The notes under the pieces: generated by a model | Database searches by the model: none | Told to the model about the DNA's origin: nothing | Seen by the model: only the letters and a program-made list of their open reading frames with translations | From: Candidatus Rokuibacteriota bacterium | GTDB taxonomy: Bacteria; Methylomirabilota; Methylomirabilia; Rokubacteriales; CSP1-6 | DNA length: 32,755 nt | Assembly: GCA_003221615.1 (NCBI GenBank) | Contig: QHSQ01000084.1 | Span: forward strand, 1-32,755 | Direction of reading: 5' to 3' | Made by a program: the position numbers and the translations under genes | Shown: positions 1,452-32,737 of the stretch, piece after piece | Position numbering within the stretch: position 1 is the stretch's first letter | Layout of the letters: the number at the start of each line of letters is the position of its first letter

Positions 1452-3116
1452 CTAGTGGCCGCCGCCCGCGCCGGGCCGGACCCAGCCGCCGTGCACCGGG
1501 TGGTGCGAGCAGATGAACTCCAGGAACGCCGGGCGGCCCTTGGCGTTCTCGTCCAGCGCGCGCTTGAGCGCCGGCAGCACCTCGGACGGTTGCGTCACGT
1601 CCTCGCCGTAGAAGCCGACTGACTTCGCCATGTTCGCCATGCACGCCGAGGCGTGATCGGACACCTTCCAGGTGTAGGGATCGTGACCGCCGCCCCAGAA
1701 GCCCGGCCCATAGCCCGAGTAGCCGCCGTTGTTGATGTGCAAGGTCGTGATGCCGATCTTGTAGCGCGCGATCGCCTCGAAGTTGCCCATCATGTAGCAG
1801 ACACCCGCGTCGCCGGTGACGTGCACGCACTGCCGATCGGGAAACGCGAGCTTGGCGCCGACCGCGCCCGCGAGACTGAACCCGAGCGTCGACACGTTTC
1901 CCCAGCCGAGATGACCGCGCGGGATCTGCGCCTCGTACACCGTGCTGGTCTGATCCCGCGTGTTGCCCGAATCGGCGGTGACGAACGAGCGCTTGGGGTC
2001 GAGCACCTTCATCAGATCACCGAGCACCCGATAGGGATTGATCGGCGTCTCGTTCGATTCCAGCCACGGCCGGAACTTCGCGAGGAACGCTTCCTTGCCC
2101 TTACGGATCTCCTCGACGAGCTCCGGGTTCTTCTTCGGGCCGCGCGCCGACAGCTCGGCGATGAGCGCTTGTAAGGTCAGCTTCGCGTCACCGACGACGG
2201 CGTGACGGGTCTCGTAGCTGCGGTTGATGTCGAGGACGTCGACCGTGCACTGGATGATCGTCTTCTTGTCCGGGTTGGGCACGGCGTGGCTGAACCGGTT
2301 GGGGAACAGGCTCGAGCCGATCGAGAAGAGCAGATCGCACTTGTTCAGGAAGTGGTCGGCCAGCGAGCCGCGAACACCCACCGACAGCGGATGGTTCTCG
2401 GGGAACGCGCCCTTGCCCTTGAGCGTCGTCAGTACCGGCACGTGCGCCAGCTCGGCGAACCTCAGGAGCTCGCTCGTGGCGTCGGCGTAGTAGACGCCCT
2501 CGCCCACGTAGAGAAGCGGATCCTTCGCGGCGAGCAGCGCCTTCACCGCAGACTTCACGTCGTCGGGATCGGGACCCGACTTCCAGCCTTTCACGGGCGA
2601 GTACGGATGCTCGTCGGTGTCGTACTCGCCGAGGTCGCGCGGAATGATGAGGAGCACCGGCCCCGGCCGGCCCGATCGAAGGTGGGTGAAGGCCCGGCGC
2701 ACGTAGTCCGGGATGAGCTCGGCGCGGTCGACCTTGCCCACCCACTTGGTGACCGACTTGAGTGCCTCGGCCATGTCGTAGTGGGTGTGCCGCGCGGCGC
2801 CCTGGCCGACGCCCTCGGTGATGACCAGGATCGGCGACGAATCCTCCCACGCCTGACCGATCGCGCCGTACGCCATCTGGATGCCGGCGGCGTTCAGATT
2901 GGCCATGATCGTGCAGACGCCGATCTGCTTGCCGCACGTGACGCGCGAGTAGGCGTCGGCGACCGCCACGGCGAAGCGCTCCTCGCCCATCATGAGGATC
3001 GGCACGCCCTCTTCGCCGAGCGCGTTGTTGACGTGATTCGTCGGATAGCAGCTCACCCACGGAATGCCCTCGGCCTTGAGCGCGCGCGCGAAGCCGTTCG
3101 CCGCTTTGACTTTCAT
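1452..3116 (-). CDS. Thiamine diphosphate-dependent decarboxylase/synthase-type enzyme
   Basis: 554 residues, the usual length of the acetolactate synthase, benzoylformate decarboxylase and oxalyl-CoA decarboxylase superfamily. The order is Pyr domain (about 1-170, with Glu at 45-46 in GEERFAVAVADAYSR, candidate for the Glu that activates ThDP), central domain (about 185-330) and PP domain (about 360-540). The PP domain carries the ThDP/Mg motif as GDAG at 435-438, ending in NN at 462-463. A GAGGAGAG site precedes ATG 3116. Expected chemistry is decarboxylation or carboligation of a 2-oxo acid or acyl-CoA; the exact substrate cannot be read from the sequence. The neighbouring gene at 3243 is divergent. 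Confidence 0.85.
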   Translation of the reverse strand: MKVKAANGFARALKAEGIPWVSCYPTNHVNNALGEEGVPILMMGEERFAVAVADAYSRVTCGKQIGVCTIMANLNAAGIQMAYGAIGQAWEDSSPILVITEGVGQGAARHTHYDMAEALKSVTKWVGKVDRAELIPDYVRRAFTHLRSGRPGPVLLIIPRDLGEYDTDEHPYSPVKGWKSGPDPDDVKSAVKALLAAKDPLLYVGEGVYYADATSELLRFAELAHVPVLTTLKGKGAFPENHPLSVGVRGSLADHFLNKCDLLFSIGSSLFPNRFSHAVPNPDKKTIIQCTVDVLDINRSYETRHAVVGDAKLTLQALIAELSARGPKKNPELVEEIRKGKEAFLAKFRPWLESNETPINPYRVLGDLMKVLDPKRSFVTADSGNTRDQTSTVYEAQIPRGHLGWGNVSTLGFSLAGAVGAKLAFPDRQCVHVTGDAGVCYMMGNFEAIARYKIGITTLHINNGGYSGYGPGFWGGGHDPYTWKVSDHASACMANMAKSVGFYGEDVTQPSEVLPALKRALDENAKGRPAFLEFICSHHPVHGGWVRPGAGGGH

Positions 3117-5800: not shown

Positions 5801-6586
5801 CTAGGGGCTTTCGATCGGCCGCCCGTGGCGGGCGATGAATTCGGGGAAGGCGGCCTCGGCCTTGGCGCCCCGAACCACGTTGGTCGTGTAGTCCCGCTCG
5901 TTCGCCCACTGCTCCTCGAGGTCGCACCCGAGGTCGCGGAGCAGGAGCGCCTTCACGCCCATCACCGCCTCGCGCTTGTTCTTGGCGATCATCGTGGCCA
6001 GCCACATCGTCTTGGCGCGCAGCTCCGCGCACGGGACGAGGTGATTGAGGAGCCCGATCCGGTGGGCCTCCGGCGCCTCGACGATCCGCGCTGAGAACAG
6101 GAGCTCCTTGGCGACCGGCCAGCCGACCTGGTTCGGCAGGGTCCAGGTGCTGTTGATCCGTCCGTAGGCGGCGGCCAGGAAGCGAAAGCTCGCGTGCTCG
6201 CAGCCGACCCGCATGTCCAGCGACGAGGCCAGCACCGCGGCGCCGCCGTACGCCAGGCCGTTCATCATCCCGATGGTGGGCTTGGGACAGGCGCTGATCT
6301 CGTAGCTGCCGCGAGTGCGAACGGCGCTGCGCGCGTCGAGCTCGGCCTGACTGTACCGGCGATCGTCCTCGCGCTGCTCGTGGATGTCACCGCCGGCCGA
6401 GAACGCGCGGGCTCCAGCCCCGGTGATCACGATGCAGCCGACCTCGTCGTCGGCGTTCATCCGCGCAACCGCCTCACGCAGCGCGGCGTTGAGCTCGGCG
6501 TTCATCGCGTTGAGCTGCTCGGGGCGATTCAAGGTGACAATCGCCACCCCTTCGGTCTTCTCGACGAGGACGACCCGGTCCGCCAT
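5801..6586 (-). CDS. Enoyl-CoA hydratase/isomerase (crotonase-fold) family protein lacking both catalytic Glu
   Basis: 261 residues, full family length. The first oxyanion-hole segment is present (AFSAGGD, 61-67), as is the second (MNGLAYGG, 108-115), so acyl-CoA binding is expected. The two glutamates of enoyl-CoA hydratase are both replaced: the GGGCEL-type motif reads GGAAVL (V118), and the PE of the following loop reads LA (A138). It is therefore unlikely to be a simple hydratase; crotonase-fold isomerases, hydrolases, decarboxylases and dehalogenases use other residues. Monocistronic, on the minus strand, and separated from mlaC by about 75 nt. Confidence 0.85.
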   Translation of the reverse strand: MADRVVLVEKTEGVAIVTLNRPEQLNAMNAELNAALREAVARMNADDEVGCIVITGAGARAFSAGGDIHEQREDDRRYSQAELDARSAVRTRGSYEISACPKPTIGMMNGLAYGGAAVLASSLDMRVGCEHASFRFLAAAYGRINSTWTLPNQVGWPVAKELLFSARIVEAPEAHRIGLLNHLVPCAELRAKTMWLATMIAKNKREAVMGVKALLLRDLGCDLEEQWANERDYTTNVVRGAKAEAAFPEFIARHGRPIESP

Positions 6587-7909: not shown

Positions 7910-8497
7910 TCAGGGCAGGAGCGTCGCGACGGCAATCACGGAGCCAGGCACGACAAGCGGCGTCACGGCGGCCGGCGGCCGGAGAGTCGCGACGTTGCGG
8001 TACCGCCAGCCGTAGGGCGCTTCCGCCGACGCCTCCGGGTCTCGGTGAACCTCGAGAGCGTTCCCGACGACGTCCACGATCCAGTAGTCCGGAACGCCGG
8101 CCCGCGCATACAGACCGGCCTTGTGCTCGCGATCGATTCGGTAGGAGCTCTCCGCGACCTCGACGATCAATACGGCGCGGGAAGGATGCGCGCTGACGTA
8201 GGCGCTGGGATCACGTGCCACGACGCTAACGTCGGGCTCCGGCTCCGACTCGTGGTCGAGGGCGATCGGTAGCTGCGAGTCGATCTGCCACTGGTCGCCG
8301 AGCGCCCGGCGAAGCGCGTCGAGCACCCGCCGGATCGTCCCCGCGTGCCGGCTTCCTTGTGGCTCTCGTACCACGAGCTGGCCATCGAGCAGCTCCAGCC
8401 GCTCGCCGGGCTGGAACACTCCAAGCTCGACGAGGCGCTCGTACTCGACGCGCGTCCAGCGCCGTGTCTTAGCCCCAGGGAGGAGCGCGGAGGCCAT
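7910..8497 (-). CDS. Uma2 family (DUF820) putative restriction-like endonuclease
   Basis: 195 residues. The PD-(D/E)XK-type core is visible: EPEPDVSVV, then LIVEVAESSYRIDREHK (E-x-K-like centre), then YARAGVPDYWIVDV. Uma2 proteins are numerous in cyanobacteria and soil bacteria, are predicted nucleases, and mostly have no known role. ATG 8497 is chosen because GGAG lies 6 nt upstream and the family begins near here; the open frame continues further upstream without a better site. It converges on the VOC remnant and is divergent from the monooxygenase gene at 8690. Confidence 0.85.
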   Translation of the reverse strand: MASALLPGAKTRRWTRVEYERLVELGVFQPGERLELLDGQLVVREPQGSRHAGTIRRVLDALRRALGDQWQIDSQLPIALDHESEPEPDVSVVARDPSAYVSAHPSRAVLIVEVAESSYRIDREHKAGLYARAGVPDYWIVDVVGNALEVHRDPEASAEAPYGWRYRNVATLRPPAAVTPLVVPGSVIAVATLLP

Positions 8498-8555: not shown

Positions 8556-8585
8556 CTGTCACTCGGCGCGGGGCGGGCGTAGAAT
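8556..8585 (+). promoter_or_regulatory. Probable sigma-70 promoter for the monooxygenase gene
   Basis: CTGTCA (8556-8561), an 18-nt spacer and TAGAAT (8580-8585) form a plausible -35/-10 pair, with transcription expected to begin near 8592. This would give an untranslated leader of about 100 nt that contains the conserved hairpin element at 8620-8682. Confidence 0.4.
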
Positions 8586-8619
8586 CCACGCACCTGGGTC
8601 CGGGCTCAGGCCGGCGGTA

Positions 8620-8682
8620 CGCGCTGCAGGTCGTCGCGGGGCTGGGGCCCCGCCGGCCCAGGCGCGACTCCAGTTAAGGAGG
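8620..8682 (+). promoter_or_regulatory. Conserved 5' leader element, copy A (nested hairpins plus RBS)
   Basis: An outer stem pairs CGCGCT (8620-8625) with GGCGCG (8661-8666). Inside it a perfect 7-bp hairpin pairs GCGGGGC (8636-8642) with GCCCCGC (8647-8653) around a TGGG loop. AAGGAGG at 8676-8682 follows, and the ATG is at 8690. A second copy stands at 32012-32075 before an unrelated gene. Aligning 8621 with 32013, 44 of the first 50 bases are identical and both points are exactly 69 nt from their start codon. One difference turns a C-G pair of the outer stem into U-G and so keeps the pairing. It looks like a cis-regulatory or mRNA-stabilising RNA. Confidence 0.65.
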
Positions 8683-8689
8683 CTCCCGA

Positions 8690-9775
8690 ATGGACTACGG
8701 ACTGTTCACGATGCCGTCGCATCCGCCCGAGCGCAATCTGTACGACGGCCACCGCTGGGATCTCCAGCAGCTCCGCTGGGCGGACGAGCTCGGATTCAGC
8801 GAGGCGTGGATCGGCGAGCATCACACGGCGCCCTGGGAGCCGCACCCGGCGCCCGATTTGCTGGTAGCCCAGGCGCTCCTTCAAACCTCGCGCATGCGCA
8901 TCGGGCCGGGCGGATTCCTGATGCCGTACCACCACCCGGCTGAGCTCGCCCATCGCGTGGCGATGCTCGATCACCTCGCGCAGGGGCGACTGAACTTCGG
9001 CGTCGCGGCCAGCGGATTACCGAGCGACTGGGCGATGTTCAACGTCGACGGCAACTCGGGCCAGCACCGCGAGATGACGCGCGAGGCGCTCGACATCATC
9101 CTGCGGCTCTGGAGCGACGAGCCGGAGTTCGATCACAAGGGCAAGTACTGGCACGTCACCAAGACCGCGACGATGCTCGACACGCTCCGTCCCCACATCA
9201 AGCCGTTCCAGAAGCCGTACCCGCCGATCGGCGTGGCCGGCGTGAGCAAGGGCTCCGACACCCTGAAGCTCGCCGGTGAGCGCGGGTTCTGGCCGATGAG
9301 CCTCAACCTGAATCCGACCTACGTCGGTAGCCACTGGGACGCGGTCGAGCAGGGGGCCGCGCGGACCGGTCGCACGCCGAAGCGCTCGCAGTGGCGGCTC
9401 GTGCGCGAGATCTTCATCGCCGACACCGACGCCGAGGCCATGCGGCTCTCGGCCGGCGGCATGATGGGGCGCATGATGAAGGAGTACTTCCTGCCGCTCC
9501 TGGCGTCGTTCCAGTTCACGGAGTTTCTGAAGCACAAGCCGGACGTGCCGGATTCCGACGTCACCCCCGAGTACTGTGCGCACCACAACTGGCTGGTGGG
9601 CTCGCCGGCCACGGTGGCCGAGAAGCTTCACGGGATCTACGAAGAGGTCGGCGGGTTCGGCACCTTGTTGCTGTTCTGCTTCGACTACTCGGAGAACCCC
9701 CAGGCGTGGCGGCACTCGATCGAGCTCCTGGCCAAGGAAGTCATGCCGCGCTTCAAGGGGCTGGTGCCGAAGTAA
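8690..9775 (+). CDS. Luciferase-like flavin-dependent monooxygenase (LLM class)
   Basis: 361 residues, a full-length bacterial luciferase-like TIM barrel. Visible family segments are DELGFSEAWIGEHHT, RMRIGPGGFLMPYHHPAELA, LDHLAQGRLNFGVAASGLP and the C-terminal VGSPATVAEKLHGIYEEVG. Such enzymes use reduced FMN or F420 to oxidise or cleave organic substrates. The WEPHPAPDLL and HPAELAHRVAMLDHL segments recall the alkanal and N-heterocycle monooxygenase branch. AAGGAGG sits 7 nt before ATG 8690. It is monocistronic and preceded by the conserved leader at 8620-8682, which suggests post-transcriptional control shared with the cupin gene at 32082. Confidence 0.88.
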   Translation: MDYGLFTMPSHPPERNLYDGHRWDLQQLRWADELGFSEAWIGEHHTAPWEPHPAPDLLVAQALLQTSRMRIGPGGFLMPYHHPAELAHRVAMLDHLAQGRLNFGVAASGLPSDWAMFNVDGNSGQHREMTREALDIILRLWSDEPEFDHKGKYWHVTKTATMLDTLRPHIKPFQKPYPPIGVAGVSKGSDTLKLAGERGFWPMSLNLNPTYVGSHWDAVEQGAARTGRTPKRSQWRLVREIFIADTDAEAMRLSAGGMMGRMMKEYFLPLLASFQFTEFLKHKPDVPDSDVTPEYCAHHNWLVGSPATVAEKLHGIYEEVGGFGTLLLFCFDYSENPQAWRHSIELLAKEVMPRFKGLVPK

Positions 9776-12610: not shown

Positions 12611-13492
12611 CTAGTCCAGCTCGAACACGCGCGCGGCATTCTTGTAGAGCCACTTCTCCTTGACGGTGTCCTTGAGCGGCAGGTTCATGTACTCGTCGAT
12701 CAAGGTCTCGTACGGCTGGCCGACGAGCCCCGCCGAGAGCCCGACGAGCACCTTGTCCTGGATCAGCGTGTTGCCCAGCTGCATCAGCATCTCCCAGCCC
12801 GAGCCGGGCTGACCGAGGTACTTTGCGCGATGCGCCGAGGTGTCCATGTGCAGATTAGGATGCCGGCGCACGAGCGCGACCATCTCGTTGACCCACGGCC
12901 AGCCGCCGAGGCCGCCGATGATGCGGAGCTCGGGGAAATCCATCGCGACCTGGTCGAGATGCCGCGGATGGCCGAGATCGTACGGCCGGTCGTTCGCGTA
13001 GTTCATCGAGGAGTAGATCCGCACGGGGATACGAAGCTCGGCCGCCTTCGTGTAGAGCGGATAGTAGCGCCGGTCGCTCGCGGGAATCATGTCGACGAGC
13101 GCCGAGACGCCGAGGGCCTTGAAGCCTTCCTCGCGGACCAGCCGCTCGAGCTCGCGGACGCCGGTCATGCCCTTGAAGGCGTTGATGCTGATGCGCGCCA
13201 GCCCGATGAAGCGGTCGGGATAGCGGCGCAGGAGCGTCGTCTCCTCGTCGTTGGTGATGCCGAACGGGACGGAGCGAACGATGCCGAGCTTGCCGAGCTT
13301 GTCGACGTAGGCGTCGAGGCTGATGTCCGGACGATGGTCCGAGCCTTCGCGGCGAGATCGAAAGATGCGGCTGTAGTTCGCCATGCCGTACCCGGCCGGC
13401 TGCGCCGCGGTCGGCTCCTGGTCGTGGCCCGGCTCCGGCTGGCTCGCTTCAGTTCTCGGGATACTACACTCCATGTCGATGATTCGCACCAT
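12611..13492 (-). CDS. Amidohydrolase-2 family protein with metal ligands apparently missing
   Basis: 293 residues with the TIM-barrel layout of the amidohydrolase-2 (decarboxylase/lactonase) family, seen best in the stretch LDQVAMDFPELRIIGGLGGW and in HPNLHMDTSAHRAKYL. The usual ligands are not where expected. The N-terminal DxHxH reads DMECSIP, the central GHLGG-type His is Gly (IIGGLGGW), and the late SD motif reads GLSAG. It may be a non-metal branch or a pseudoenzyme. ATG 13492 follows GAGGGAGA by about 5 nt. The upstream frame is open into an ABC-transporter remnant, so a longer fusion is formally possible, but the ribosome binding site argues against it. Confidence 0.7.
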   Translation of the reverse strand: MVRIIDMECSIPRTEASQPEPGHDQEPTAAQPAGYGMANYSRIFRSRREGSDHRPDISLDAYVDKLGKLGIVRSVPFGITNDEETTLLRRYPDRFIGLARISINAFKGMTGVRELERLVREEGFKALGVSALVDMIPASDRRYYPLYTKAAELRIPVRIYSSMNYANDRPYDLGHPRHLDQVAMDFPELRIIGGLGGWPWVNEMVALVRRHPNLHMDTSAHRAKYLGQPGSGWEMLMQLGNTLIQDKVLVGLSAGLVGQPYETLIDEYMNLPLKDTVKEKWLYKNAARVFELD

Positions 13493-15318: not shown

Positions 15319-17288
15319 GCGCCAGCCGCGGCATGACCCCCGAAGATCTGACGCGAATTCTGTTCGTCACCGAACCCCAGATCTCGCCCGACGGACGACG
15401 CGTCGCCTTCGTCGTCACGTCCTTGTCCGAGGAGCGCGACGAGTATCTCGCCAACATCTGGATCGTCGGCGTCGACGGCGGCACGCCCCGGCAATTCACC
15501 GCGGGGCCACGGCGCGACATCGAGCCGCAATGGTCGCCCGACGGCACGCGGCTCGCATTCCTTTCCGAACGCGCCCCCAAGGACAAGCTCCAGCTCTACG
15601 TGATGCCGGCGGACGGCGGCGAGCCGACGAAGCTGACCGCCCTGGAGCACGGGGTCTCGAGCATCGCGTGGGCGCCGGACGGCACCCGGCTCGTGTTCGT
15701 GTCGCCGGTCGGCGGCCAGAAGGAGCCGGAGAGCGAGGAGGAGAAGCGCAAGTCGCGACCGGCACGCGTCATCACCTCGGTGAAGTATCGGTTCAACGGC
15801 GAGGGGTTCACGTATGATCGGCGCCCGCACGTCTTCGTCGTCCCGCTCGACGGGTCGAGCCCCGTTCAGATCACCGACGGTGACTTCATCGACGCCGATC
15901 CGGTCTGGGCGCCCGACGGCGAATCGATCGTGTTCGCGTCGGCCCGTCACGCCGCGCGCGACGACGACGACGCGAGCGACCTCTGGCGCGTGCCGCCGAA
16001 GGGTGGCGCGCCGCAGCGTCTCACCGCGACCACGGGGCCGGTCATGCTCCCTGCGTTCGCGCGGGACGGGCGTACGATCGCCTTTCTCGCGCGCGCCGGG
16101 CTGAACGCCTACGGCCGCAACGTCCAGCTTTTCACGGTGCCGTCGGACGGCGGCCAGGCCGTCTGCCTCACGTCGGCGCTCGATCGCTCGTGCGGCCCGC
16201 TCCACGCGCGGCCGCTGTGGTCATCGGATGGTCGGTTCATCACGGTCGCCGCCGAGGAGCGCGGTGACGTCGGCCTCTGGCGTGTGGCCGCGACGGGCGG
16301 CTCGGCTCCCGCGCGCGCCGTCGGCGGCGAGCGCGCGGTGAACGGGTTCTCCACATCTGCCGACGGCCGGCTGGTCGCCTTCGCGGCAAGCGGGCCGGTG
16401 GCGCCCGCCGAGGTCTTCGTGTGTCGCCTCGACGGAAGCGACGAGCGCCGGCTCACCGGGTTGAATCGTGGCTGGACCGACTCGGTGGCGCTCTCGGCGC
16501 CCGAGCGGTTCCGGTTCACGCGCGCCGGCTTCGAGCTGGACGTCTGGGTGATGCGCCCGGCCGGCTTCGTCGCCGGCCGGCGCTATCCCACGCTTCTCAA
16601 CATCCACGGCGGCCCGCACGCTCAATACGGCCACAATTTCTTCGACGAGTTCCAGGTGTACGCCGGCGCCGGCTATGCGGTCGTCTACACGAATCCGCGG
16701 GGCAGTCAGGGGTACGGGGAGTCCTTCGCCCAGGCCGTGGTCGGCGATTGGGGCGGGGGCGACTACGCGGACGTGATGGCCGCGCTCGACGAAGCGCTCG
16801 CGCGCCACCCGTTCATCGACCCGGATCGGCTCGGCGTGCTCGGCGGAAGCTACGGCGGATTTCTGACGAGCTGGACCGTCGGGCACACGAAGCGCTTCAA
16901 GGCCGCGTGCTCCGAGCGGGCGGTGAACTGCCAGTACACGATGTTCGGCACGAGCGACATCGGCCATAGCTTCAACGTCGTCGAGCTCGGGGGCCCACTC
17001 CCGTGGGAGGACATGGCGCGCTACATCGAGCGCTCGCCGCTCACGTACGCCAAGGACATCGCGACCCCGCTCCTGATCCTGCACTCCGAGGACGACCTGC
17101 GCTGCCCGATCGAGCAGGCCGAGCAGCTCTTCGTGGCCCTCAAGAAGCTCGGGCGCGAGGTCCGCTTCGTGCGCTTTCCCGGCGAGAACCATGAGATGTC
17201 GCGCTCGGGCAAGCCGCGCCACCGGCTCGAGCGGTTCCGCCACATCCTCGAGTGGTTCTCGACCCACCTCGGGAGGAGCGCCTGCTGA
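15315..17288 (+). CDS. S9 family (acylaminoacyl-/prolyl oligo-) peptidase
   Basis: 657 residues: a WD40/TolB-like beta-propeller (about 15-400, repeated WSPDG/WAPDG signatures) followed by an alpha/beta hydrolase domain (about 425-655). The catalytic triad is complete: Ser512 in GGSYGG, Asp594 in HSEDDLRCP, His626 in GENHEM. It should cleave short peptides, possibly N-acylated ones. No signal peptide is seen, so it is cytoplasmic. The GTG at 15315 overlaps the upstream stop; an in-frame ATG at 15333 is the alternative. The open frame extends further upstream, but only as a shadow of the DinB gene. Confidence 0.92.
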   Translation: MSASRGMTPEDLTRILFVTEPQISPDGRRVAFVVTSLSEERDEYLANIWIVGVDGGTPRQFTAGPRRDIEPQWSPDGTRLAFLSERAPKDKLQLYVMPADGGEPTKLTALEHGVSSIAWAPDGTRLVFVSPVGGQKEPESEEEKRKSRPARVITSVKYRFNGEGFTYDRRPHVFVVPLDGSSPVQITDGDFIDADPVWAPDGESIVFASARHAARDDDDASDLWRVPPKGGAPQRLTATTGPVMLPAFARDGRTIAFLARAGLNAYGRNVQLFTVPSDGGQAVCLTSALDRSCGPLHARPLWSSDGRFITVAAEERGDVGLWRVAATGGSAPARAVGGERAVNGFSTSADGRLVAFAASGPVAPAEVFVCRLDGSDERRLTGLNRGWTDSVALSAPERFRFTRAGFELDVWVMRPAGFVAGRRYPTLLNIHGGPHAQYGHNFFDEFQVYAGAGYAVVYTNPRGSQGYGESFAQAVVGDWGGGDYADVMAALDEALARHPFIDPDRLGVLGGSYGGFLTSWTVGHTKRFKAACSERAVNCQYTMFGTSDIGHSFNVVELGGPLPWEDMARYIERSPLTYAKDIATPLLILHSEDDLRCPIEQAEQLFVALKKLGREVRFVRFPGENHEMSRSGKPRHRLERFRHILEWFSTHLGRSAC

Positions 17289-17798: not shown

Positions 17799-18548
17799 AT
17801 GGGTAAGCTCGAAGGCAAGGTGGCTCTGGTGACCGGTTCGGGTCGCAACATCGGCCGCGCGACGGTCCTGAAGCTCGCGACCGAAGGCGCGCACGTGGTC
17901 GTCAACTCCCGGACGAACCAGGCCGAGGCCGAAGCCGTCGCGCGCGAAGCCCAGGCCCGCGGGGTCAAGGCGATCGCCGTCGTGGCCGACGTCGCCCGGA
18001 AGGATCAGGTCGACGCGATGGTCGCGAAGGCGATGTCCGAGTTCGGCCGGATCGACATCCTCGTCAACAACGCGGCGATCCGGCCTCACAAGCCCTTCAC
18101 GGAGCTGACGGTGCAAGACTGGGAGGCGGTCCGGGGCGTCGTGCTGGACGGCGCGATCTATTGCACGCGCGCGGTCATCGAGTCGATGGTCAAGAACAAG
18201 TACGGACGGATCGTCTTCTTCACCGGCGAGGGGGCTTTCATGGGCGGCTCCGGCCGCGCCGCCGTCTCGGCCGCGAAGATGGGCCTGGTTGGTTTGGCCC
18301 GAGGGCTGGCGTCGGAGTTCGCCGCCCAGAACATCCGGGTCAACGTCGTGTCGCCCGGAAGCATCGACACCTCGCGCGCCAACCCCGAGTGGTATCAAGG
18401 GCGCACGCCGAACGCCGGCGGAATTCCGCTCGGACGTCAGGGGTCGGTCGACGAGATCGCGGCCACCTGCCTCTTCCTGGTCACCGACGACGGCGGCTTC
18501 ATCACCGGGCAGACCATTCACGCGAACGGGGGCGTCGCCTACTACTGA
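17799..18548 (+). CDS. SDR-family oxidoreductase lacking the catalytic Tyr
   Basis: 249 residues of the classical short-chain dehydrogenase length. The Rossmann motif TGSGRNIG (about 12-19), NNAAI (about 89-93) and the late VVSPGSIDT are intact, so NAD(P) binding is expected. The catalytic YxxxK reads VSAAK: Val156 replaces Tyr while Lys160 is kept. The preceding Ser region reads TGEGAF instead of SSxxG. An ordinary alcohol/ketone redox reaction is therefore doubtful. GGAGGTG precedes ATG 17799. The nearest relatives by pattern are FabG-like 3-oxoacyl reductases. It lies at the edge of the cassette array. Confidence 0.85.
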   Translation: MGKLEGKVALVTGSGRNIGRATVLKLATEGAHVVVNSRTNQAEAEAVAREAQARGVKAIAVVADVARKDQVDAMVAKAMSEFGRIDILVNNAAIRPHKPFTELTVQDWEAVRGVVLDGAIYCTRAVIESMVKNKYGRIVFFTGEGAFMGGSGRAAVSAAKMGLVGLARGLASEFAAQNIRVNVVSPGSIDTSRANPEWYQGRTPNAGGIPLGRQGSVDEIAATCLFLVTDDGGFITGQTIHANGGVAYY

Positions 18549-31933: not shown

Positions 31934-31962
31934 TTCCGCGAGGTCCGATGGCGCGCTATCAT
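31934..31962 (+). promoter_or_regulatory. Possible promoter of the cupin gene
   Basis: TATCAT at 31957-31962 could be a -10 box with a weak TTCCGC -35 (31934-31939), 17 nt apart. It directly follows the stop of the upstream gene. The transcript would carry a leader of about 110 nt that includes the conserved element at 32012-32075. Confidence 0.3.
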
Positions 31963-32011
31963 GCGCGGCGCGGGCGGGCGCGCCGCGCGCCCGAATCGAC
32001 GCGAGGTCGTG

Positions 32012-32075
32012 CGCGCCGCAGGCCGTCGCGGGGCTGGGGCCCCGCCGGACGAGGCGCGCCTTCTGAACAAGGAGG
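32012..32075 (+). promoter_or_regulatory. Conserved 5' leader element, copy B (nested hairpins plus RBS)
   Basis: The counterpart of the element at 8620-8682. The outer stem pairs CGCGCC (32012-32017) with GGCGCG (32053-32058). The inner hairpin pairs GCGGGGC (32028-32034) with GCCCCGC (32039-32045) round a TGGG loop. In this copy CGTC and GACG can also pair between the two stems. AAGGAGG (32069-32075) follows, then ATG 32082. The conserved part does not extend into the coding sequence, so it is not a relic of gene duplication. Confidence 0.65.
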
Positions 32076-32081
32076 CGAGAC

Positions 32082-32558
32082 ATGGCGCTTCAGGTGCGGC
32101 GAGTCATCACGGGCCACGACGCCGACGGCCGCGCGATCGTGAAGATCGACGAGGTCTCCAAGAACGTGGCCTCGGGCCGGCCGGGCGCGACCGCCTGTAA
32201 CATCTGGACCACCGAAGGCTTTCCGGCCAACAACGACGGTGCGGCCGACGAGGGCCTGCGCAAGGTCGACACGACGCTGAAGAACGGGACGATCTTCCGC
32301 GTGATCGAGTTCGCGCCCGGGCTCGCCGCGCGTAACCACCGGACCGACTCGATCGACTACATCGTGATCATCTCCGGCGAGATCGACATGGAGCTCGACG
32401 ATTCGGTCGTGCACCTCAAGGCCGGCGACGTGATGGTGCAGCGGGGCACGATCCACAACTGGGTTAACAACGGCACCGCGCCCTGCGTTCTCGCGGTCAT
32501 CCTGATAGACGCCAAACCAGTCGAAGCCGGCGGCAAAGTCCTGACCGCGGTCGGTTAG
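32082..32558 (+). CDS. Cupin-domain protein
   Basis: 158 residues, no signal peptide. The cupin core is in the second half: NHRTDSIDYIVIISGEIDM (motif 1, with His92-like HRT and Asp in place of the usual Glu) and HLKAGDVMVQRGTIHNWVN (motif 2 with the final His). Residues 1-70 form a lead-in domain seen in cytoplasmic cupins that may act as small-molecule dioxygenases or sensors. AAGGAGG lies 6 nt before ATG 32082. It is monocistronic, with the conserved leader in front and hairpins behind. Sharing the leader with the LLM gene at 8690 hints at a common signal. Confidence 0.83.
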   Translation: MALQVRRVITGHDADGRAIVKIDEVSKNVASGRPGATACNIWTTEGFPANNDGAADEGLRKVDTTLKNGTIFRVIEFAPGLAARNHRTDSIDYIVIISGEIDMELDDSVVHLKAGDVMVQRGTIHNWVNNGTAPCVLAVILIDAKPVEAGGKVLTAVG

Positions 32559-32583: not shown

Positions 32584-32587
32584 GAAG

Positions 32588-32614
32588 AAGCGTCCCGGTT
32601 AGCCCGGGGCGCTT
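32588..32614 (+). terminator. Hairpin terminator candidate after the cupin gene
   Basis: AAGCGTCCCGG (32588-32598) pairs with CCGGGGCGCTT (32604-32614), an 11-bp stem with one G-T pair and a TTAGC loop. It lies 30 nt after the stop. No T-run follows, so intrinsic termination would be weak. Confidence 0.55.
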
Positions 32615-32712
32615 CGGCGCAACTGAAGGACTGAGGACCCCTGGACCCGAGTCCTCCCGCAAGATCGAGGAGCGCCACGGCTGCGCCGGGGCGCTTCCGA
32701 GCGACGGGGGGC

Positions 32713-32737
32713 TTGGGGGCCCCTTCGAGGCCCCCAA
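32713..32737 (+). terminator. Second GC-rich hairpin near the window end
   Basis: TTGGGGGCC (32713-32721) pairs perfectly with GGCCCCCAA (32729-32737) around a 7-nt loop, followed by an AT-richer stretch. It could end transcription from either side. Between 32615 and 32712 I see only a weak GAGGAC/GTCCTC hairpin and no convincing gene. Confidence 0.45.

Follow-up and report, generated by a model that had tools for sequence, protein, structure and literature searches.

The MIRU repeats of mycobacteria are dispersed direct tandem repeats that lie in operon junctions, oriented with the genes, and are not known to be strong hairpins. REPs of the GTAG superfamily, as described by Di Nocera et al. 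(2013, PMC3733652), have a unit of 20–40 bp, and their tag often supplies the stop codon of the upstream gene. Correia MITEs sit immediately 5' of genes (PMC10969869). The window analyzed here, a stretch of 32,755 nucleotides from a soil Candidatus Rokuibacteriota bacterium, contains two copies (A and B) of a hairpin that shares some features with these systems and differs in others. We consider it very probable that this leader belongs to a small mobile palindromic repeat family of Candidatus Rokuibacteriota that is REP/MITE-like and plays a generic leader role once inserted, rather than being a ligand-sensing switch.

The two copies form a direct repeat of 53 nt (8617–8669 and 32009–32061) with 47 of 53 bases identical, the same match that the original prediction had described as 44 of 50 aligned bases. 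Its central observation, a structured leader shared by two unrelated genes, is borne out: the fold is the same, and a luciferase-like monooxygenase lies behind one copy and a cupin behind the other (Table 1). The distance to the start codon is also equal, as predicted, but it counts 70 nt (base 8620 to the ATG at 8690, base 32012 to the ATG at 32082) and not 69. The C-G to U-G substitution noted in the outer stem is real and corresponds to model pair 13-49, with U in copy A and C in copy B. For both 61-mers the nested hairpin is the predicted fold (−38.5 kcal/mol for copy A and −36.2 for copy B), but for DNA so rich in GC this stability does not stand out by itself (z of −2.24 and −0.70, respectively), and the repeat is significant because of its recurrence, not because of its fold stability. 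The stem coordinates are those of the model structure; the outermost pair of copy A, 8619-8667, is A-A and does not form.

Table 1. Positions of the two repeat copies and neighboring features in the window
Feature	Position	Strand	Basis
Copy A of repeat (covariance model positions 1–61)	8613–8673	+	model match 74.1 bits, E 3.1e-14
Copy A three-segment hairpin	8619–8667	+	predicted fold; same model pairs counted across 100 copies
Copy A stems and loop	outer 8619–8625/8661–8667, middle 8629–8633/8654–8658, inner 8636–8642/8647–8653, loop 8643–8646	+	model structure
Putative −10 hexamer TAGAAT 5' of copy A	8580–8585	+	by eye
Shine-Dalgarno AAGGAGG of monooxygenase gene, just 3' of copy A	8676–8682	+	read from sequence
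Luciferase-like monooxygenase gene behind copy A	8690–9775	+	PF00296, E 1.5e-45
Copy B of repeat	32005–32065	+	model match 75.1 bits, E 1.8e-14
Copy B hairpin	32011–32059	+	predicted fold and pair counts
Copy B stems	outer 32011–32017/32053–32059, middle 32021–32025/32046–32050 (one mismatch), inner 32028–32034/32039–32045	+	
Putative −10 hexamer TATCAT 5' of copy B	31957–31962	+	by eye
Shine-Dalgarno AAGGAGG of cupin gene	32069–32075	+	read from sequence; predicted pairing with copy B 3' tail
Cupin gene behind copy B	32082–32558	+	PF07883, E 1.7e-10

Sequence elements around the copies are shared with congeners. G005 and G006 lack copy A but have both the TAGAAT stretch and the Shine-Dalgarno sequence of the monooxygenase gene, and TATCAT is retained in G005, G006, G007, and G008. 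If the putative hexamer TAGAAT acts as a −10 element, it would place copy A within the transcribed leader. Also in the window, a Uma2-family gene (PF05685; 7910–8593, minus strand) is divergent from the monooxygenase gene, and its region has many additional matches of 65–76% identity in the genomes of the genus. Behind the cupin gene lies a 57-nt direct repeat (32586–32642 and 32668–32724, 70% identical) with GC-rich hairpin-like stretches, possibly two terminators.

That the element would recur had been predicted, and it does. The core pattern, allowing up to three mismatches, has 97 matches in the 7.24-Mb genome that contains the window (48 forward and 49 reverse), whereas the reversed pattern has none in the same genome. 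A covariance model built from 30 copies gives 135 matches at E ≤ 0.1 in that genome (at most 150 candidates scored). Across the class, 40 of 95 genomes, our own included, have a match at E ≤ 1e-5 (at most 57 candidates scored per genome), and 29 of 59, again including our own, match the model at E ≤ 0.01 (at most 92 candidates scored per genome); the genomes compared are draft MAGs. All nine genomes of the genus are rich in the repeat, with 32 to at least 92 copies each, the remaining genera of the family have a patchy 0 to 50 copies, and in other families G037 is the sole match, with 18 copies. At least 95 public stretches carry the repeat, and all listed ones are labeled Candidatus Rokuibacteriota or Rokubacteria; confinement to Rokubacteria holds among the matches listed, which do not prove it. 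Neither plasmids and phages (blastn of copy B) nor viral contigs (exact pattern) gave a match. The family is unmentioned in the titles and abstract openings of the papers found on hairpins and palindromic repeats of Rokubacteria and Methylomirabilota. As a short extragenic palindrome in high copy number, the element resembles a REP, with a unit longer than 20–40 bp.

The consensus is GGTnGTGCGCGCTGCAGGCCGTCGCGGGGCTGGGGCCCCGCCGGCCGAGGCGCGCCTnTAA, often followed by AT. It comprises an outer stem of 7 bp, an internal loop (GCA/GA), a middle stem of 5 bp, a TC bulge, an inner stem of 7 bp, and the loop TGGG. The unit of about 63 bp ends in the tails GGYNG and CTATRAAT, which are not matching terminal repeats, and at the 5' end of 247 copies GNNG is found in 84%, GYRG in 49% (about 3% would be expected from an assumed base composition), and strict GTAG in 17%. 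Outside the genus, many copies read GCGAGCC...GGCGAGC, with GGAC/GTCC as the middle stem. The core boxes of integron attC sites, GTTRRRY (R') and RYYYAAC (R''), were not seen in the consensus or alignment on inspection by eye. At three loci (L086, L087, and L088), much the same outer part, GTGCGAGCCGCAGG...CGAGGCGAGC, encloses unrelated apical hairpins, as if the hairpin tip were exchangeable.

The predicted preservation of the structure by compensatory change is supported by a sample of 100 copies drawn from 238 distinct ones; because these copies are related, the counts are not independent. Both partners are altered in 12 of 19 pairs (34 cells), pairing is present in 92.9% of cells, and none of 500 shuffles reached as high a covariation score; controls with the pairing slid gave four to seven pairs with double changes, in 4–18 cells. 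In the outer stem the paired fraction is 83.9%, with the outermost pair failing to form in 35 of the 100 copies. The pattern by which copies were collected favors the core, so that the invariance of the inner stem arises partly by construction. In the outer stem, a change to G.A and A.G is coupled, both being carried by 58 of 247 copies; tandem G.A pairs form stably on this strand and are not known to do so on the other. G-U pairs also exceed A-C mismatches, by 82 to 41 outside pair 13-49 and by 46 to 20 in the outer stem. These biases indicate that constraint probably acts on the top strand, in the form of either RNA or single-stranded DNA.

Comparison with congeners shows that the copies vary in their presence: each of nine arrays compared lacks a copy in at least one of them. 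The monooxygenase gene behind copy A is present in eight congeners. In G005 and G006 both flanks are found but the repeat between them is missing; by eye, the 130 nt preceding the gene contain no copy in G001, G002, G003, G004, and G007; and in G008, where the start is not aligned, there is a possible half-repeat. The site of copy B is occupied in G005 and empty in G006 and G008; G007 was scored as empty, with a short remnant that may remain, and in G003 an alignment that begins inside the repeat suggests an occupied site. On L101, the site at 8257 has no copy in five of five congeners (cleanly in G005, G006, and G002, whereas G001 and G007 have 13–33 nt of different sequence there); the triple array at 12717 corresponds to one copy in G006 and to none in G005, G007, and G002; the copy at 15720 is shared by G006 but not by G005; and at 1787 there is none in G005, G007, or G001, while G002 has a copy at another position. 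On L100, G006 shares the copy at 3030, G007 lacks it, and GGTAGTG alone remains in G005, apparently through loss of the copy; the array at 6077 is double in G005 and absent in G007, and neither G005 nor G006 has the one at 17949. These two genomes, conversely, carry copies in a gap that contains no copy in our genome. Among 190 copies, a search at a fixed ungapped offset gave no target-site duplication, and repeats of 3–5 nt at single loci (e.g. L287) are anecdotal.

Two further observations concern such sites. In G002, the slot occupied by the main repeat in G005 and G006 holds a double copy (C29:10942–11038) of a second palindromic family of unrelated sequence with the core GGGGCGCCTGCGCAGGGCTCCGGCGCCC; this family, also seen at L205, L355, L358, and other loci, has 11 matches in four of the nine genus genomes and shows paired stem changes. 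At L138 in our genome, at the site orthologous to L286:1392–1451, where L286 bears the repeat, there is just a stretch resembling its 3' end (GCCACGCCTATCAAT), which suggests decay by internal deletion.

Placement relative to genes was counted with a home-made gene caller, in our genome for 60 stretches chosen around the stronger matches plus the window. Here 103 matches at E ≤ 0.001 group, on one strand, into 82 arrays (66 single, 11 double, and 5 triple), so that 16 of 82 are head-to-tail tandems. Seventy-six arrays are intergenic and six lie within called genes; 18 are in divergent and 7 in convergent regions, and between co-directional genes 38 are sense and 13 antisense (p 0.0006). In other Rokubacteria (103 arrays from 94 of the at least 95 public stretches), sense outnumbers antisense by 54 to 11 (p 6e-8), a count that is not fully independent, as relatives share some insertions; 19 arrays are divergent, 6 convergent, 4 in genes, and 9 have a missing neighbor. 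Pooled, there are 92 sense and 24 antisense copies between co-directional genes, and 10 of 185 arrays lie inside gene calls. The sense copies start at a median of 4 nt after the upstream stop codon and end at a median of 18 nt before the start codon; in 28 of 92, the last base of that stop codon falls among the first 5 nt of the repeat. A start codon lies 10–24 nt behind the 3' end in 51 of 92, as against 10.7% of random intergenic bases; antisense copies lie a median of 17 nt from a start codon. In divergent regions, a start codon is found 10–24 nt from the 3' end in 21 of 37 cases and from the 5' end in 3 of 37. Thus, placement is biased by strand and by ribosome-binding site. Most copies, unusually, occupy the space from a stop codon to a Shine-Dalgarno sequence in sense orientation, so that the repeat should become a leader or intercistronic mRNA hairpin. 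The original prediction had set a dispersed repeat in random orientation against its own reading; the repeat is indeed dispersed, but its orientation and position are not random. The search of the genome and its relatives that it proposed reveals a recurrent family just 5' of ribosome-binding sites, with a strand bias such that the repeat should usually be transcribed.

Whether this placement reflects selection or a target preference can be addressed in part by copies with no called sense gene behind them (antisense, convergent, or inside genes). A Shine-Dalgarno-like sequence (at least five of six matches to AGGAGG) lies within 16 nt of the 3' end in 11 of 47 such placements compared with 14 of 282 control windows (Fisher p 1.6e-4; 10 of 46, p 5.8e-4, after dropping one with a possible start), in a post hoc test, the only one in which near-duplicate flanks were removed. 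AGGAGG follows immediately at the empty sites of copy B (in G006) and of the L272 copy, and AAGGAGG lies a few nucleotides from those of copy A. The pattern favors target preference but could reflect missed genes, and selection explains it about as well. We give even chances to selection, by which insertion would be random across intergenic DNA and copies would survive where genes are undamaged, an account compatible with the other readings. Co-directional genes are separated by a median of 17 bp, which leaves few harmless spots, and an A-rich tail beside the Shine-Dalgarno sequence would keep that site accessible; on the other hand, the residual gap at repeat sites (median 38.5) is smaller than length-weighted chance would give (272.5), and the post hoc excess without a sense gene also runs against selection. 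It is rather unlikely that insertion machinery, its mover being neither a Y1 HUH enzyme nor IS110 nor reverse transcriptase, takes the Shine-Dalgarno sequence, or the junction between it and the stop codon, as its target and is oriented by one strand. If it does, every jump would install a ready-made 5'-leader structure on a gene.

The original prediction had proposed a recurring cis-acting RNA that would be a riboswitch-like or protein-bound regulator or an mRNA-stability element, and that possibly defined a regulon. Conserved structure with covariation, the sense bias with its near-fixed distance to the start, the sense-strand excess of G-U over A-C, and the tandem arrangement are all compatible with such an RNA. 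Tandem arrangement occurs in some riboswitches. However, copies are missing at orthologous sites for nine of nine arrays, 24 of 116 co-directional copies are antisense, and Rfam gives no match at the gathering threshold over the window and none at E ≤ 10 over 8560–8720. The genes behind the copies are mixed: among 56 downstream proteins of our genome, searched over at most their first 300 residues, 78 Pfam families were matched, none in more than three, and urocanase, arginase, ribosomal protein L19, IspD, and S-adenosylhomocysteine hydrolase are all represented. No functional theme was seen among the downstream and upstream genes. Nor is the Shine-Dalgarno sequence systematically sequestered. 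In 76 leaders its mean unpaired probability is 0.555, slightly higher than with the repeat of another locus (0.522, p 0.012) and no different from that with a shuffled repeat (0.527, p 0.27), and we reject sequestration as a general switch. An exception is copy B, where (at 32053–32077) the tail CGCCUUCU of the repeat can pair with AGGAGGCG, the Shine-Dalgarno sequence, in competition with the outer stem; the predicted mean unpaired probability of the site is 0.003. The riboswitch and regulon reading is not supported, and we regard it as very improbable.

Among Y1 transposase, IS110, and reverse transcriptase, no mobilizing enzyme was found to track the repeat, and no transposase appears in the 25 of 64 families shown for 45 upstream genes. 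A GTAG-superfamily REP moved as a folded single strand by a RAYT (Y1 HUH) that has been lost or escaped detection would account for the GNNG and GYRG ends, the lack of a target duplication, the strand-asymmetric fold, and the stop codons that end within the first 5 nt, which PMC3733652 reports of GTAG REPs as well. Against it, Y1_Tnp (PF01797, IS200/RAYT) occurs in none of the nine genus genomes, whose copy numbers run from 32 to at least 92. In the family, 2 of 28 repeat-bearing genomes have it, as do 4 of 7 repeat-free ones; over all 59 genomes the figures are 2 of 29 and 21 of 30, respectively, most of the repeat-free ones being distant. Strict GTAG is limited to 17% of copies, and the unit is longer than 20–40 bp. 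We regard this origin as rather unlikely. Less likely still is a classical MITE moved by the DDE transposase of a resident insertion sequence. The repeat is short, non-coding, palindromic, polymorphic, and intergenic, and its position recalls the Correia MITEs immediately 5' of genes (PMC10969869), but neither a target-site duplication over 190 copies nor matching terminal inverted repeats were found, and IS110, which has a DEDD and not a DDE-type transposase, does not track copy number. IS110 itself was rejected as mobilizer because three genomes with at least 92 copies each (G002, G003, and G005) lack it; reverse transcriptase (RVT_1) was likewise rejected, being missing in seven of nine genus genomes. 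The repeat is REP/MITE-like in behavior without strict membership in the RAYT-moved REP group.

The absence of copies from at least one congener for nine of nine arrays, their multiplication in tandem, and the mixed genes behind them point to a mobile repeat and not to a conserved switch, and a new REP/MITE-like family is the best reading. Against the mobile repeat stand the lack of a mobilizing enzyme and of a target-site duplication among those sought, the 24 of 116 antisense copies, and the 10 of 185 arrays in gene calls; the sense bias and covariation, which would be equally expected of a functional leader RNA, also count against it. As a mechanism for the mobile repeat, we envision that a trans-acting activity recognizes the folded top strand and mobilizes it, and that copies come to lie immediately before a Shine-Dalgarno-like sequence either through a preference of insertion or because selection retains them there. 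The inserted hairpin would then be transcribed into a generic leader or intercistronic structure that could serve mRNA stabilization, processing, or insulation, with most copies probably near-neutral and decaying. A plausible riboswitch call is replaced by a mobile-repeat explanation, and a repeat family is described in an uncultured phylum, providing a case of a mobile hairpin positioned relative to ribosome-binding sites. Two questions can now be tested: are REP-like repeats under selection as mRNA leaders, and what moves them in genomes with no identifiable RAYT?

The Rokubacterial repeat resembles several known families and differs from each. Like GTAG-superfamily REPs as described by Di Nocera et al. 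(PMC3733652), it is an abundant intergenic palindrome with G-T stem pairs, a possible G-Y-R-G-like tag at one end that often supplies the stop codon, a site near the 3' end of the upstream ORF, and an uneven distribution across related genomes. It departs from that description in its unit of about 63 bp, three stem segments, conserved internal loops, head-to-tail tandems, near-fixed distance to the downstream start, sense bias, and a genus without Y1 transposase. With the CGTC-tagged REPs of the same source (PMC3733652) it shares a CGTC directly before the inner palindrome and the lack of a known dedicated transposase, but the Rokubacterial repeat has the CG of CGTC base-paired within the middle stem, encloses the hairpin in an outer stem, and shows neither the AT pairs at the stem base nor the CCA tail. 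Correia/NEMIS and ERIC MITEs are, like this repeat, transcribed mobile hairpins beside genes with a proposed effect on mRNA processing or stability (PMC2229807). They measure 107–155 bp (Correia/NEMIS) and 127 bp (ERIC) as against about 63 bp, differ in sequence, and have terminal inverted repeats with target duplication, which were not found in the Rokubacterial repeat. With the MIRUs, finally, it has in common tandem direct repeats at operon junctions that are oriented with the genes, in an unrelated sequence.
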